33,927 nucleotides of DNA from Oscillatoriaceae cyanobacterium M7585_C2015_266 (lineage in GTDB: Bacteria > Cyanobacteriota > Cyanobacteriia > Cyanobacteriales > Oscillatoriaceae), in the NCBI GenBank assembly GCA_015295835.1, contig DVEG01000012.1:1-33927 (forward strand). The letters are read 5' to 3'. The notes below the pieces were generated by a model. It did no database searches, was not told the DNA's origin, and saw only the letters and a program-made list of their open reading frames with translations. Below, one piece after another: positions 6,267 to 11,223 of this stretch; position 1 is the stretch's first letter; each line of letters starts with the position of its first letter. Made by a program: the position numbers and the translations under genes.

Positions 6267-7646
6267 GTGGAGGATAAAACCCTGAGCACCCGCGTTATCT
6301 TAGTCCGTCACGGCAAAAGCAGCTATAATCAAGAGCGCCGCATCCAAGGACGTCTAGATGCATCTATATTAACAGAAGAAGGCCGCGAAACAGCACGGTT
6401 AGTCGCTGAAGCATTACGCGGTATAAGTTTCGATGCCATATATTCTAGTCCCCTACAGCGAGCGAAAGAAACCGCATCGGTAATTCTTTCCCATTTACAA
6501 GCAGACGGGCAACATCCCCCTCTAGAGCCAAAAGCAAGTTTGATGGAAATTGACTTGCCCGCATGGGAAGGGATGCTGCGCCAAGAAGTGATAGAAAAAT
6601 ATCCACAAGATTATCGCTGCTGGCAAGAGCGCCCCCACGAGTTACGAATGTTAGTGCCAAATGCCAACGGTTATACTGAACACTTCCCCGTATTGGCTAT
6701 TTACAAACAGGCGCAACAGTTTTGGGAAGAGATACTTTCCCGTCACAGTGACGGCACAATTTTGGTTGTTGCCCACAATGGTATTAATCGGGCTTTGATT
6801 AGTACCGCTGTTGGTATTTCGCCGGCTTTTTATCATTCTATTCAGCAGTCGAATTGCGGCATTAGTGTATTGAATTTTGCTTCTGCTAGTGATTCTGCAC
6901 AGGGAGCAAGAGGCTCAGTGCAGTTAGAATCAATGAATCTGACTTATCATGTGGGAGAAAAACTTCCCAAGCCGAGGGAAAATCATCACGGCGTGCGTCT
7001 GTTGCTGATTCGTCACGGAGAAACGGAATGGAATCGTCAAAGTCGCTTTCAAGGGCAAATTGATGTTCCTCTCAATGAGAATGGTAGGGAGCAAGCGCGG
7101 CGAGTGGGCGAGTTTCTCAAAGATGTTGAGATTGATTTTGCTGTCAGCAGTTCAATGTTGCGAGCGAAAGAAACGGCTGAGGTTATTTTAAAATATCACC
7201 CGCAGGTGGAGCCAAAGTTAGATGATGGGTTGCGGGAAATTAGTCACGGGCTGTGGGAAGGAAAGTTTGAATCGGAAATCGAGCAGATATTTCCAGGGAT
7301 GTTGCAGCAATGGAAGCAAGCCCCTGAAACTGTACAAATGCCGGCAGGGGAAAATTTGCAACAAGTGTGGGAAAGAGCGAGCGCATCCTGGCAGACAATC
7401 GTAGCATCAGCAGCCCCCGGTACAACTGGTATTGTCGTCGGGCACGATGCCATCAACAAAGCTATCCTCTGCCACCTTTTTGATCTTAGTCCAAAATCTT
7501 TTTGGTGTTTTAAACAAGGCAACGGTGCCGTCACCGTCATCGATTATCCTAAAGGAGCCGATGCCCCACCAGTGTTGCAAGCAATGAATATTACCTCTCA
7601 TATCAGTGGGGGTATACTTGACAAGACAGCGGCAGGGGCTTTGTAG
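6267..7646 (+). CDS. Double-domain histidine phosphatase (phosphoglycerate-mutase-like; candidate phosphoserine phosphatase)
   Basis: Two tandem histidine-phosphatase domains in one 459-residue protein. Domain 1 carries VILVRHGKSSYN (H15) and the second catalytic His in VVAHNGINR; domain 2 carries LLIRHGETEWN (H250) and VVGHDAINK. Each also has the SSPLQRAKETA or SSMLRAKETAE segment typical of the dPGM/acid phosphatase fold. The protein resembles cyanobacterial GpmB-like proteins; the Synechocystis homologue (slr1124, from memory) was assigned as the phosphoserine phosphatase of serine synthesis. True mutase activity is possible but less likely. The coordinates use the in-frame GTG at 6267, but that codon overlaps the best Shine-Dalgarno sequence, TGGAGG (6268-6273), which is spaced 8 nt before a CTG at 6282; translation may begin there. 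Confidence 0.85.
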   Translation: MEDKTLSTRVILVRHGKSSYNQERRIQGRLDASILTEEGRETARLVAEALRGISFDAIYSSPLQRAKETASVILSHLQADGQHPPLEPKASLMEIDLPAWEGMLRQEVIEKYPQDYRCWQERPHELRMLVPNANGYTEHFPVLAIYKQAQQFWEEILSRHSDGTILVVAHNGINRALISTAVGISPAFYHSIQQSNCGISVLNFASASDSAQGARGSVQLESMNLTYHVGEKLPKPRENHHGVRLLLIRHGETEWNRQSRFQGQIDVPLNENGREQARRVGEFLKDVEIDFAVSSSMLRAKETAEVILKYHPQVEPKLDDGLREISHGLWEGKFESEIEQIFPGMLQQWKQAPETVQMPAGENLQQVWERASASWQTIVASAAPGTTGIVVGHDAINKAILCHLFDLSPKSFWCFKQGNGAVTVIDYPKGADAPPVLQAMNITSHISGGILDKTAAGAL

Positions 7647-7658
7647 AACGCTCTAGCT

Positions 7659-8918
7659 ATGATAGAATTGCTAAAACAAGTAAGAGTGATCGATCCGCTT
7701 GCTAAAACTGATCAGATAGCTGACGTGGCGATCGCTAGTGGATTTATCCAAGCGATCGAGCAAGAAATTTGCGATCTTCCCACCGACAGCCAACAGCACG
7801 ATTGCCGAGGACTAATTCTTGGACCTGGATTAATAGATCTTTACAGTCACAGCGGCGAACCAGGGTTTGAAGAAAGAGAAACCATCGCATCTCTTAAACG
7901 TGCCGCCTTTAAAGGCGGATTTACCCGCCTCGCCATCCTGCCCGATACTAATCCCCCAGTCGATAACCCTGGAGGGCTAGCTCTATTGCGAAAAGCCTCC
8001 GAAATCTCCAGGGATTCTGCCCCTAATTTGTATTTTTGGGGAGCTCTGACGATAAACATTCAAGGGCAACAGATGACAGAATTAGCAGAATTGGCTGCAG
8101 CCGGAGTAGTAGGCTTTGCTGATGGGCAACCAGTCAATAATCTGGCACTACTGCGCCGGATATTGGAATATCTCAAACCGCTGCAAAAACCTGTTGCCCT
8201 GTGGCCAAAAGACCGGAATTTGGCTAGTAATGGCGTTATGCGCGAGGGAGCAGATTCAATTCGCCTCGGCTTACCTGGGAATCCCGCCATCTCTGAAACT
8301 TCTGCCCTCGCAGCTCTTCTGGAAGTCGTCGCCGCTACTGAAACTCCTGTACATCTGATGCGCATTTCTACGGCTCGCAGTGTCGAGCTGATTCGAGACG
8401 CTAAAGCGCGCGGCTTGCCAATTACTGCTAGTACTACTTGGATGCATTTGTTACTTGACACGAGTGCAATAAGCAGCTATAACCCGGCATTACGTCTGGA
8501 ACCGCCGTTAGGAAATCCTAGGGATCGTACCGCACTGATTGCTGGAGTAAGAGAGGGGGTAATAGATGCGATCGCGATCGATCACGCCCCCTATACTTAT
8601 GAAGAGAAAACCGTCGCCTTTGGAGAAGCACCTCCCGGAGCGATCGGATTAGAACTCGCCCTCCCCCTCCTGTGGCAAGAACTTGTGGAAACAGGATACT
8701 TAAGTGCCTGGCAGCTTTGGCGCAGTCTCAGCACCCAACCCGCCCATTGCCTACAACAAGAACCGCCAGCCCCAACCGTCGGCGCTCGTGCCGAACTGGT
8801 ACTTTTCGATCCCCTGAAAAAATGGACAGTTGACACCCAAACCCTTGAGAGCCGCTCTCAAAACACTCCTTGGCTGGGGCAAACCCTAACAGGTCGCGTT
8901 TTACAAATTTGGAATTAA
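7659..8918 (+). CDS. Dihydroorotase-like protein, metal site degenerate (PyrC' / PyrX type)
   Basis: A 419-residue amidohydrolase-fold protein clearly related to dihydroorotase: PGLIDLYSHSGEPG, LPDTNPPVDNPGGL, IDHAPYTYEEK and a C-terminal GARAELVLFDP cap. The catalytic site is largely lost. In the DxHxHxR motif the first His is Y62 and the Arg is G66; the carbamylated-Lys position is V151, the next His W182 (ALWPKD) and the next R235. Only H64 and D308 (IDHAP) remain. Such inactive homologues are known in other bacteria as PyrC' and scaffold aspartate transcarbamoylase; that role here is inference. It starts 12 nt after the phosphatase gene, so the two are probably co-transcribed. No frameshift or stop is present, so it is a pseudoenzyme rather than a pseudogene. 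Confidence 0.85.
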   Translation: MIELLKQVRVIDPLAKTDQIADVAIASGFIQAIEQEICDLPTDSQQHDCRGLILGPGLIDLYSHSGEPGFEERETIASLKRAAFKGGFTRLAILPDTNPPVDNPGGLALLRKASEISRDSAPNLYFWGALTINIQGQQMTELAELAAAGVVGFADGQPVNNLALLRRILEYLKPLQKPVALWPKDRNLASNGVMREGADSIRLGLPGNPAISETSALAALLEVVAATETPVHLMRISTARSVELIRDAKARGLPITASTTWMHLLLDTSAISSYNPALRLEPPLGNPRDRTALIAGVREGVIDAIAIDHAPYTYEEKTVAFGEAPPGAIGLELALPLLWQELVETGYLSAWQLWRSLSTQPAHCLQQEPPAPTVGARAELVLFDPLKKWTVDTQTLESRSQNTPWLGQTLTGRVLQIWN

Positions 8919-9002: not shown

Positions 9003-9608
9003 TTATTGCGGATTTTCTTCCAAATGATAAACCGGCTGGGGATTAATCTCCCCAAGGCGAGTCAAAGGCCAGAAACGGACCACTGCTCGACCGATAATAT
9101 GATCGCGGGGGACAAAACCCCAGTAGTGACTGTCATAGCTGTTATTGCGGTTATCCCCCAAAACTAAATAATGGCCAGGCGGCACTTTCACTGGGCCATA
9201 TTGATAAAGCGGTTCCTCTTCGATATAATTTTCCCGCAATAGGCGATTGTTAATGTAAACCCTTCCCCCTTTCACTTCCACAGTTTCTCCCGGCAGCCCT
9301 ATCACCCGTTTAATAAAGGCATCATGAAAATTCTGCCGCTCTAGGGTGTCGGTTGGAGAAAATACCACAATGTCACCCCGTTTAGGATCTTGGAATCTAT
9401 AGCTTAATTTATCGACGAGCAGGCGATCATTAATCTGTAGGGTGGGCAGCATAGATCCCGATGGGATGTAGCGAGCTTCGGCGACAAAAGTACGAATCCC
9501 AAAGGCTAATAAGGCACTCAACCCAATAGTCTTGAGTGCTTCTATCCAGGGATTTTCAGTATTTTGTTGAGGCTGGTTGTCAGGTATTTCTTGCTGCACG
9601 CGAGTCAT
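9003..9608 (-). CDS. lepB: Signal peptidase I
   Basis: A 201-residue type I signal peptidase, which removes signal peptides from exported proteins on the outer face of the plasma or thylakoid membrane. One N-terminal membrane segment (about 26-44) is followed by the conserved boxes: [12 protein letters not shown] with catalytic S52, [24 protein letters not shown] with the catalytic base K100, and [18 protein letters not shown]. It is short, like other cyanobacterial and plastid enzymes. The ATG at 9608 gives the usual MTRVQQ-type start with a polar N-terminus before the membrane helix; the frame extends to a TTG at 9671, but that adds an unlikely hydrophobic segment. It is transcribed toward the dihydroorotase-like gene and divergently from pyrC. 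Confidence 0.92.
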
Positions 9609-9860
9609 ATCTACTATATTTAGTCTATAATGGAAAAACGTAAACGATAGAATAAAAAATATTTCGCACAAGAGTTAGGTTTGGCTGAAATTTTTGCAAG
9701 CTAAGGTATATTAAAAGCTATACTATTTTTCTAACAATTGTAATAATTATTAGTGTTAAACGGTTCTGATTTTCCCTTTGCCGCCAACGGAAGCAGTCTA
9801 AGCCAGAAGCCAAGCGACTTGATTGATTCCTCCTTAAAGCTCAGTTTATCAAAAGCAAAC

Positions 9861-9894: not shown

Positions 9895-11223
9895 ATGTCT
9901 GCAACTCCTTGCTTATGGATTCGTAACGCCCGCATCCTCTTACCTAACGGTGAGTGGATGGTAGGAGACGTACAAACGCGCGCTCGCACCATCATTCAAG
10001 TCGCGCCAGAGATTGCTGCCGAGGAGATTATACCCACTGCTCGCGAGATAGACGCTTCTGGATTAACTTTGTTGCCTGGAGTCATCGATCCCCAGGTACA
10101 TTTTCGAGAGCCAGGGCTAGAACACAAAGAAGACTTATTTACAGCCTCAAAAGCCTGCGCCCGCGGCGGAGTCACCTCATTTTTAGAAATGCCGAATACG
10201 CACCCCCTAACGATTACTCAAGCGGCTTTAGATGACAAACTGCAACGGGCTGCCCAAAAGTGCTTAGTTAATTATGGCTTTTTTATTGGCGCAACTCCAG
10301 AAAATTTACCAGATCTTCACACAGCCAACCCCACACCGGGAATCAAAATTTTTATGGGCTCAATGCATGGGCCATTATTAGTAGATGACCAAGAGGCACT
10401 AGAAGCTATCTTTGCAGCAGGTGAACGCTTAATTGCGGTTCACGCCGAAGATAAAACCCGCATCGAAGAACGACGGAAAATATTTTCAGGGATAACAGAT
10501 CCCGCCATTCACTCCCAAATTCAGGATAATCAAACTGCACTCATAGCCACCAAGCGGGCTTTAGCTCTTTCTAAAAAATATCAGCGACGTCTGCACATCT
10601 TGCATATGTCCACAGGCGAAGAAGCAGAATTGCTGCGTCAAGATAAACCTAGTTGGGTGACGGCAGAAGTCACGCCCCAACATTTGTTGCTAAATGTCAG
10701 TGCTTATGAAAAAATAGGCACATTAGCGCAGATGAATCCCCCACTGCGAGCGCCTCGTGACAACGAAATCCTCTGGCAAGCCCTACTCGATGGTGTCATT
10801 GACTTTATCGCCACGGATCACGCTCCCCACACCTTAGAAGAAAAGGCGAAAGAATATCCTAATAGCCCCTCTGGGATGCCGGGAGTCGAAACCTCTCTGC
10901 CCTTGATGCTCACCCAAGCCATGCAGGGACGCTGTACCGTCGCTCAAGTGGCCAACTGGATGTCAACAGCCGTTGCCAAAGCTTACAAAATTCCCAAAAA
11001 AGGAGCGATCGCCCCCGGTTTTGACGCCGATTTAGTCCTCGTAGATTTAAATACTTACCGCCCAGTCTTGCGGGAAGAACTCCTAACCAAGTGCGGCTGG
11101 AGTCCCTTTGAAGGGTGGAACCTCACCGGTTGGCCAGTTTTCACTATTGTTGGCGGAAAAGTAGTTTATGAAAAAGGCAAAATTAATACAGAAGTTCGAG
11201 GCGAAGCCTTAATTTTCAATTAA
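9895..11223 (+). CDS. pyrC: Dihydroorotase
   Basis: A 442-residue dihydroorotase, the third step of pyrimidine synthesis (carbamoyl aspartate to dihydroorotate). Seen: LLPGVIDPQVHFREPG, EMPNTHPLT, the carbamylated Lys K151 in GIKIFMGS, H183 in AVHAED, H237 in ILHMST, D308 in IATDHAPHT and the NSPSGMPGVETSLPL segment. The first His of HxH is Q67 (D65-P-Q67-V-H69-F-R71). I recall this PQVHFREPG variant from other cyanobacterial and Bacteroidetes dihydroorotases, so it is probably a subfamily feature and not damage. Compared with the paralogue 1 kb upstream, this copy keeps nearly all the active site and should be the working enzyme. Its stop overlaps the stop of convergent tsaE by 4 nt. Confidence 0.88.
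   Translation: MSATPCLWIRNARILLPNGEWMVGDVQTRARTIIQVAPEIAAEEIIPTAREIDASGLTLLPGVIDPQVHFREPGLEHKEDLFTASKACARGGVTSFLEMPNTHPLTITQAALDDKLQRAAQKCLVNYGFFIGATPENLPDLHTANPTPGIKIFMGSMHGPLLVDDQEALEAIFAAGERLIAVHAEDKTRIEERRKIFSGITDPAIHSQIQDNQTALIATKRALALSKKYQRRLHILHMSTGEEAELLRQDKPSWVTAEVTPQHLLLNVSAYEKIGTLAQMNPPLRAPRDNEILWQALLDGVIDFIATDHAPHTLEEKAKEYPNSPSGMPGVETSLPLMLTQAMQGRCTVAQVANWMSTAVAKAYKIPKKGAIAPGFDADLVLVDLNTYRPVLREELLTKCGWSPFEGWNLTGWPVFTIVGGKVVYEKGKINTEVRGEALIFN

Follow-up and report, generated by a model that had tools for sequence, protein, structure and literature searches.

The gene at positions 7659..8918 (+ strand) of the window, by which we mean the whole 33,927-nucleotide stretch of cyanobacterial DNA analysed here, encodes a 419-residue pseudo-dihydroorotase (PRK07369), in which the dihydroorotase (DHO) fold is predicted to persist and catalytic residues have been replaced. 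The interpretation that we favour, and hold to be reasonably likely rather than settled, is that this protein serves a class A2-type aspartate transcarbamoylase (ATCase) as its pseudo-DHO subunit (PyrC'/PyrX), encoded by a gene that is unlinked from pyrB. In such an arrangement, the catalytically dead type I dihydroorotase would bind PyrB and, by analogy with pDHO (PyrC') in Pseudomonas and with the role proposed for PyrX in S. meliloti, would keep trimers of PyrB together in a complex that is stable and active. ATCase activity would then depend on the dead protein, and conserved loops round its pocket would form the contact surface with PyrB.

We prefer this subunit role because a DHO fold is predicted, the catalytic set is lost in all cyanobacterial proteins aligned, the gene is under purifying selection, the genome holds a second DHOase, and the protein groups with pseudo-DHOs that are encoded beside pyrB. 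The auxotrophy caused by disruption of smc01361 in S. meliloti, the identities among PyrB proteins and the conservation of loops modelled with low pLDDT are counted as further support. Among the matches listed by searches of the open-access full-text literature there was no paper on a cyanobacterial pseudo-DHO; the 2004 work of Labedan reportedly concerns ATCase quaternary structures.

Fold, catalytic residues and loops

The frame begins with ATG, has 0 internal stops when read as an ORF, and encodes a product that matches PRK07369 end to end, as expected from a preliminary description of this DNA as carrying a full-length, undamaged gene. The protein is a full member of the family (NCBIfam NF005614; 678.6 bits against a cut-off of 456, residues 3-418), and the family name, 'dihydroorotase', claims an activity that its residues do not support. 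Among the remaining equivalog models, PRK07627, which we take to be the model of pseudomonad PyrC', scores highest but falls short of its cut-off (328 against 442 bits), and the general model TIGR00857 scores 356 bits. Within the host genome (3.98 Mb, 98.5% complete, the window being contig C14), the protein matches only the PRK07575 gene at 9895-11223, with 34-35% identity.

The predicted structure (mean pLDDT 78.5, pTM 0.84) has the two-domain amidohydrolase barrel of an active type I dihydroorotase. Its nearest solved structure is T. thermophilus DHO (2z00; Z 42.6, rmsd 2.6, 386 residues aligned), and the A. aeolicus DHO taken from its ATCase complex is similarly close (3d6n_A and 4bjh_A; Z 42.2, rmsd 2.6-2.7, 390-391 aligned, 32% identity).

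Residues are numbered here after A. aeolicus DHO, to which the window protein was aligned. Where an active DHO has H-x-H-x-R (A. aeolicus H61, H63 and R65), codons 62-66 (7842..7856, +) read Y62-S-H64-S-G66. Codon 96 (7944..7946, +) gives D96 for N95, codon 182 (8202..8204, +) gives W182 for H180, and codon 235 (8361..8363, +) gives R235 for H232; within codons 308-312 (8580..8594, +), D308 keeps D305 and Y312 replaces H309. We take R65, N95 and H309 to be substrate-handling positions. The best counterpart of the ligand Asp153 is D155 (codon 155, 8121..8123, +), which is probably its equivalent in view of a matching D-G-x-P-V motif, and the larger alignment gaps that column, so that the assignment holds to within one residue. 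At the alpha-site ligands H61, H63 and D153 and the substrate residue R65, the window protein thus has Y62, H64, D155 (probable) and G66, and lacks the set of an active DHO.

The preliminary description had read Y62 at the first His and G66 at the Arg, with H64 and D308 retained, and the alignment agrees at A. aeolicus positions 61, 65, 63 and 305. Its placement of the carbamylated Lys at V151 was wrong, since the ligand in A. aeolicus DHO is Asp153 rather than a Lys, and the window residue there is probably D155. It had also counted W182 and R235 as lost His ligands, and these do align with positions 180 and 232. According to excerpts of PMC3880350, however, the single zinc of A. aeolicus DHO is bound by H61, H63 and D153, and the double Ala mutant of His180 and His232 is active. 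These two residues are dispensable there, and W182 and R235 alone would therefore not prove inactivity. To judge from the alignment, the telling losses are H61 to Y and R65 to G, together with N95 to D and H309 to Y.

The same positions were counted in 58 cyanobacterial rows (40 non-picocyanobacterial and 18 picocyanobacterial). Three fragments (L044, L045 and L048), which read Y-Q-G, Y-Y-A and Y-H-G at 61-63-65, were left out of these counts and of the trees. H61, H63 and R65 occur together in 0 of the 58 rows. Conservation of the degenerate positions across cyanobacteria, proposed earlier as a check, is found in all 40 non-picocyanobacterial rows, where position 61 is Y (38) or F (2) and position 65 is G (36) or S (4); as aligned, this replacement pattern is in excess of chance. 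In the same rows, position 63 is H in 31 and another residue in 9, position 180 is W in 33 and another residue in 7, position 232 is R in 38 and G in 2, and position 305 is D in 38 and N in 2. The picocyanobacterial rows follow another pattern, with H at 61 and N at 232 in all 18, H at 305 in 16 and N in 2, never H at 63 and never R at 65. A role for these picocyanobacterial proteins as working DHOases was considered and rejected, H63, R65 and D305 being changed in 18/18.

Several stretches of the model fall below pLDDT 50 (residues 66-70, 135-137, 154-156, 190-206, 273-283 and 310-326), and they are on average more conserved than the rest of the protein (mean entropy 1.02 versus 1.45; 5 of 418 circular shifts are equally low). 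The signal is carried by 66-70, 273-283 and 310-326; stretch 190-206 is near average (1.27), and 135-137 and 154-156 are not conserved. Codons 310-326 (8586..8636, +) encode a conserved low-confidence loop of the single-chain model and are a candidate for partner contact. Three loops of A. aeolicus DHO are described in part of PMC3880350 as disordered in the free protein and ordered by ATC, the enzyme being inactive until then. The conserved yet loose loops of our model recall these, and the parallel is no more than suggestive, since the model alignment is shallow (15 rows). The A. aeolicus protein (class A1; 3d6n, 4bjh) appears to share its fold with the window protein, but it differs in keeping H61, H63, R65 and D153 and in being an active enzyme in its complex.

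Distribution of the gene and the source of dihydroorotate

One set of 242 class genomes was searched with profiles for PRK07369, TIGR00670, PRK07575 and class II PyrC. A PRK07369 gene is present in 229 of them, of which 205 have a match over the family cut-off and 24 a match below it with a best E-value of 1e-58 or better. The sole match of one further genome (G227; 4.0e-39) fits PRK07575 and was excluded. E-value alone is unspecific for NF005614, which has matches in 14/14 control genomes and exceeds its cut-off in 1 of these.

The gene is under purifying selection, with dN/dS of 0.06-0.37 in 40 printed pairs among 23 chosen loci. These values, the presence of the gene in 229/242 genomes and the 70 positions that are invariant among 15 diverse rows (hand count) make it extremely improbable that the gene is decaying and functionless, even though it is in pieces in at least three of the 229 genomes (G184, G240 and G059) and has been lost from ten genomes of one genus. 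In G184 (L241), the pseudo-DHO is split over several frames, whereas that of G022, from the same genus (L242), is unbroken; either loss or a sequencing error may account for this.

PRK07575 is over its cut-off in 143 of the 242 genomes and class II PyrC in 100, such that 135 genomes have only the former, 92 only the latter, 8 both and 7 neither. The PRK07369 gene occurs in 134, 81, 8 and 6 genomes of these groups, respectively, and of the 229 carriers, 223 also have a DHOase of known type that exceeds its cut-off (against 235 of all 242 genomes). Because it is kept whichever DHOase co-occurs, the PRK07369 gene is probably not that of the pathway DHOase. The window genome has a PRK07575 dihydroorotase gene at 9895..11223 (+; profile match, 813 bits), in which Q-x-H replaces H-x-H, and a search for class II PyrC gave no match there. 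This gene would provide the separate DHOase that accompanies a class A2 pseudo-subunit, and from its profile match it is probably the working DHOase of the genome.

Some other loci depart from this picture. In G034, a PRK07575 gene with stops (G034:C31:12116-13360) lies beside an unbroken pseudo-DHO, and no class II PyrC is over cut-off. Two genomes that are 99-100% complete (G131 and G204) have neither DHOase type over cut-off and yield only partial PRK07575 matches with a stop. A scan of viral contigs found no relative.

The protein might still be catalytic, either as a DHOase or as a new hydrolase with a remodelled pocket (Y62, D155, R235 and D308). The pocket is conserved outside picocyanobacteria (Y62 in 38/40, G66 in 36/40, R235 in 38/40 and D308 in 38/40), and part of PMC2770081, citing Brichta 2004, records a PyrC paralogue under Zur regulation that is active despite having lost the usual zinc residues. 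However, ligand positions drift, with H, Q, Y, T or R at 63 and, in picocyanobacteria, changes at 63 and 65 and from D305 to H or N in every row, and most genomes already hold a DHOase of known type. The active paralogue is presumably of the QxH type represented by a P. putida plasmid gene (L273), which also has QxH, and this sequence falls beside PRK07575 at the tree root, outside the PRK07369 family. We consider continued catalysis quite unlikely.

PRK07575 is the gene that follows on the + strand of the window, and the pseudo-DHO could instead be its non-catalytic partner. The two are about 1 kb apart, and PRK07575 is found downstream in 20 of the best 80 of 425 named loci. Yet the pseudo-DHO is retained in the 81 of 92 genomes noted above in which class II PyrC is the sole DHOase type to exceed its cut-off, and in G054 it is unbroken beside a PRK07575 fragment (G054:C30:30290-30757), so we judge a partnership with PRK07575 to be very unlikely.

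Genomic neighbourhood and gene loss

A gene for a two-domain histidine phosphatase, identified by family matches, lies at 6267..7646 (+), and its stop at 7646 precedes the start at 7659 by 12 nt, exactly as the preliminary description had given it. The convergent neighbour on the other side, known from its ORF and from neighbourhood comparison (9003..9671, -), is presumably a LepB-like signal peptidase. Together with what we take to be a CPBP-like gene, these genes form a block (CPBP-like, phosphatase, pseudo-DHO, LepB-like) that is common to the window and to the Prochlorococcus-like genome G160 of genus g20 (L243, L250). We take the window phosphatase to resemble, and perhaps to be the ortholog of, Slr1124 of Synechocystis. 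Slr1124 is a phosphoserine phosphatase according to parts of PMC12077085 and PMC11257934.

A phosphatase match lies upstream on the same strand at 70 of the best 80 of 425 named loci, and under a stricter test (end at most 300 nt away) at 54 of the 74 loci that have more than 1.7 kb of upstream sequence. In a second set, a match falls inside the 1.5 kb flank at 44 of 59 loci, with one of the 44 ending 1277 nt off; the other 15, from several lineages and including two with short flanks, have no phosphatase in this interval. In G165 and G232 the phosphatase is on a different contig. The picocyanobacterial genes are orthologs by place, with an upstream phosphatase match at 17/17 loci of this second set. 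As far as gene order can tell, the pairing of pseudo-DHO and phosphatase is real and old.

In genus g20, 10 of 11 genomes are without the pseudo-DHO, the ten being 1.6-1.7 Mb in size. At all ten empty sites (L248, L251-L259), the phosphatase and LepB-like genes are less than 100 nt apart, which indicates clean loss. Both the phosphatase and a PyrB over cut-off are kept in all ten. Three other genomes that lack the gene (G093, G227 and G229) were not counted as true losses, because they are drafts of 62-91% completeness and their weak or lower-identity phosphatase matches fit assembly gaps.

It had been suggested that the protein has a role linked to the phosphatase, and it could in principle be a partner or regulator of that enzyme. 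The neighbourhood on which the suggestion drew stands, from the block shared with G160 to the upstream matches at named and second-set loci, picocyanobacterial ones included. The inferred joint function does not fare as well, since the phosphatase is retained in the ten genomes that have lost the pseudo-DHO and is missing upstream at 15 of 59 loci or sits on another contig. In addition, relatives outside cyanobacteria adjoin pyrB in 10 of 12 fetched loci. A phosphatase partner is, in our estimate, unlikely.

Relatives, PyrB and the proposed subunit

Trees were built on subsets of 40 rows (first DHO tree), 31 rows (enlarged DHO tree) and 30 rows (PyrB tree), the DHO trees sampling proteobacterial pseudo-DHOs only from the groups named below. 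In the first DHO tree, the cyanobacterial rows and four alphaproteobacterial pseudo-DHOs grouped at 99/94. In the enlarged tree, to which Acinetobacter and Sphingomonas were added and from which picocyanobacteria were left out, pseudo-DHOs separated from active ones at 84/91; support for the pseudo-DHO clade thus drops with more rows, and the Acinetobacter branch is long.

Many relatives are encoded beside pyrB. Among 12 plasmid-collection loci that were hand-picked from the search matches and fetched, pyrB lies within 2.5 kb upstream in ten. Six proteobacterial pseudo-DHO genes are at most about 1 kb downstream of pyrB (by annotation and tblastn), with a 4-nt overlap of the two genes in S. 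meliloti and Sphingomonas. Active relatives in Monoglobus, Hymenobacter, Collinsella and Nonomuraea also adjoin pyrB (4/4). In sister lineages (other classes of the phylum), 24 genomes have a match, and the five relatives that were read (three from family f51 and two from f44) all have H61, H63, R65, D153 and D305. The DHO gene follows a confirmed pyrB in both f44 genomes, amid genes that resemble those of a pyr operon. The two f44 proteins (L239 and L240, from G279 and G247) are N-terminally short, at 348-351 residues, with catalytic residues kept, and their genes come directly after pyrB.

Two known systems resemble the arrangement that we propose. According to part of PMC7053772, the PyrB of P. 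aeruginosa stays an inactive monomer unless pDHO is supplied, and the PyrC'/pDHO of class A2 ATCases from P. putida and P. aeruginosa is described as an inactive DHO homologue that is needed for ATCase activity there; class A complexes measure about 460-500 kDa. The window protein has the corresponding character of a type I DHO homologue without the zinc-ligand and substrate residues. The likeness is one of description, with the cyanobacterial complex presumed, and the cyanobacterial gene differs in lying away from pyrB. In S. meliloti, disruption of smc01361, which is next to pyrB, leads to pyrimidine auxotrophy though another PyrC is essential, and its authors propose that the product, PyrX, is an inactive DHO required for PyrB (excerpts of PMC5929573). 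The gene at locus L264, presumably smc01361 to judge from its pyrB neighbour, belongs to the sister group of the cyanobacterial proteins and shares R65 to G and N95 to D with the window; it differs in overlapping pyrB and in having R at position 61 where the window has Y.

The pyrB gene of the window genome is on contig C18 and the pseudo-DHO gene on C14, and the position beside pyrB that is usual, though not definitional, for class A2 is thus absent. PyrB (TIGR00670) is matched in 241 of the 242 class genomes and is over cut-off in 231; matches below the cut-off may be ornithine transcarbamylase only. The PyrB of the window genome (L034) shares 46-52% identity with the ten PyrBs encoded at the plasmid-collection loci, and 38-42% with those of A. 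aeolicus, B. subtilis, E. coli and the f44 genomes. PyrB similarity does not track partnership, however: the DHO-binding PyrB of A. aeolicus is less identical to L034 (40.6%) than that of B. subtilis (42.0%). The top PDB match of L034 by sequence is B. subtilis ATCase, which part of PMC7053772 describes as a trimer without a partner. The PyrB tree gives the cyanobacterial proteins no firm position among the groups; its branches are long and its bootstrap values unsettled. Cyanobacterial PyrB is, from its sequence, compatible with a partner and does not itself reveal one.

PyrB columns that change where the pseudo-DHO is lost (16 printed) were also considered, and nothing was drawn from them, given one loss event and many conservative changes. 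In four genomes (L277-L280), PyrB matches its family in two pieces within one frame, a pattern that suggests an in-frame insertion close to position 200 of the model.

The preliminary description had proposed a scaffold or regulator for PyrB. This proposal gains indirect support from the tree placement, the separate DHOase in 223 of 229 genomes and the PyrX precedent; it is opposed by the unlinked pyrB and by the ten Prochlorococcus-like genomes that keep PyrB without the gene, and these losses limit the claim of a subunit role. They are, with the distance from pyrB, the main weights against it, and binding to PyrB is itself something that we infer. The failure of PyrB similarity to track partnership, the unplaced PyrB tree, the lower clade support and the shallow loop model also count against the subunit.

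Ligand binding is compatible with the way in which the pocket is conserved outside picocyanobacteria. The near-invariant Y62, G66, R235 and D308, with Y312, might bind a metabolite and tune PyrB, which would make the protein a fossil-enzyme sensor that sets pyrimidine synthesis in most cyanobacteria and is co-expressed with a serine-pathway phosphatase. This is a speculative extension of the subunit role, and we give it a small chance of being correct.

If the proposed subunit role is true, cyanobacterial aspartate transcarbamoylase would belong to the class A2 type and be built from two genes, that of the partner lying apart from pyrB. The PRK07369 'dihydroorotase' of 229 of the 242 class genomes would then be misnamed, and models that count PRK07369 as PyrC would be wrong. 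The ten clean losses in which PyrB is kept would offer a natural experiment on an enzyme that has been freed of its dead partner.
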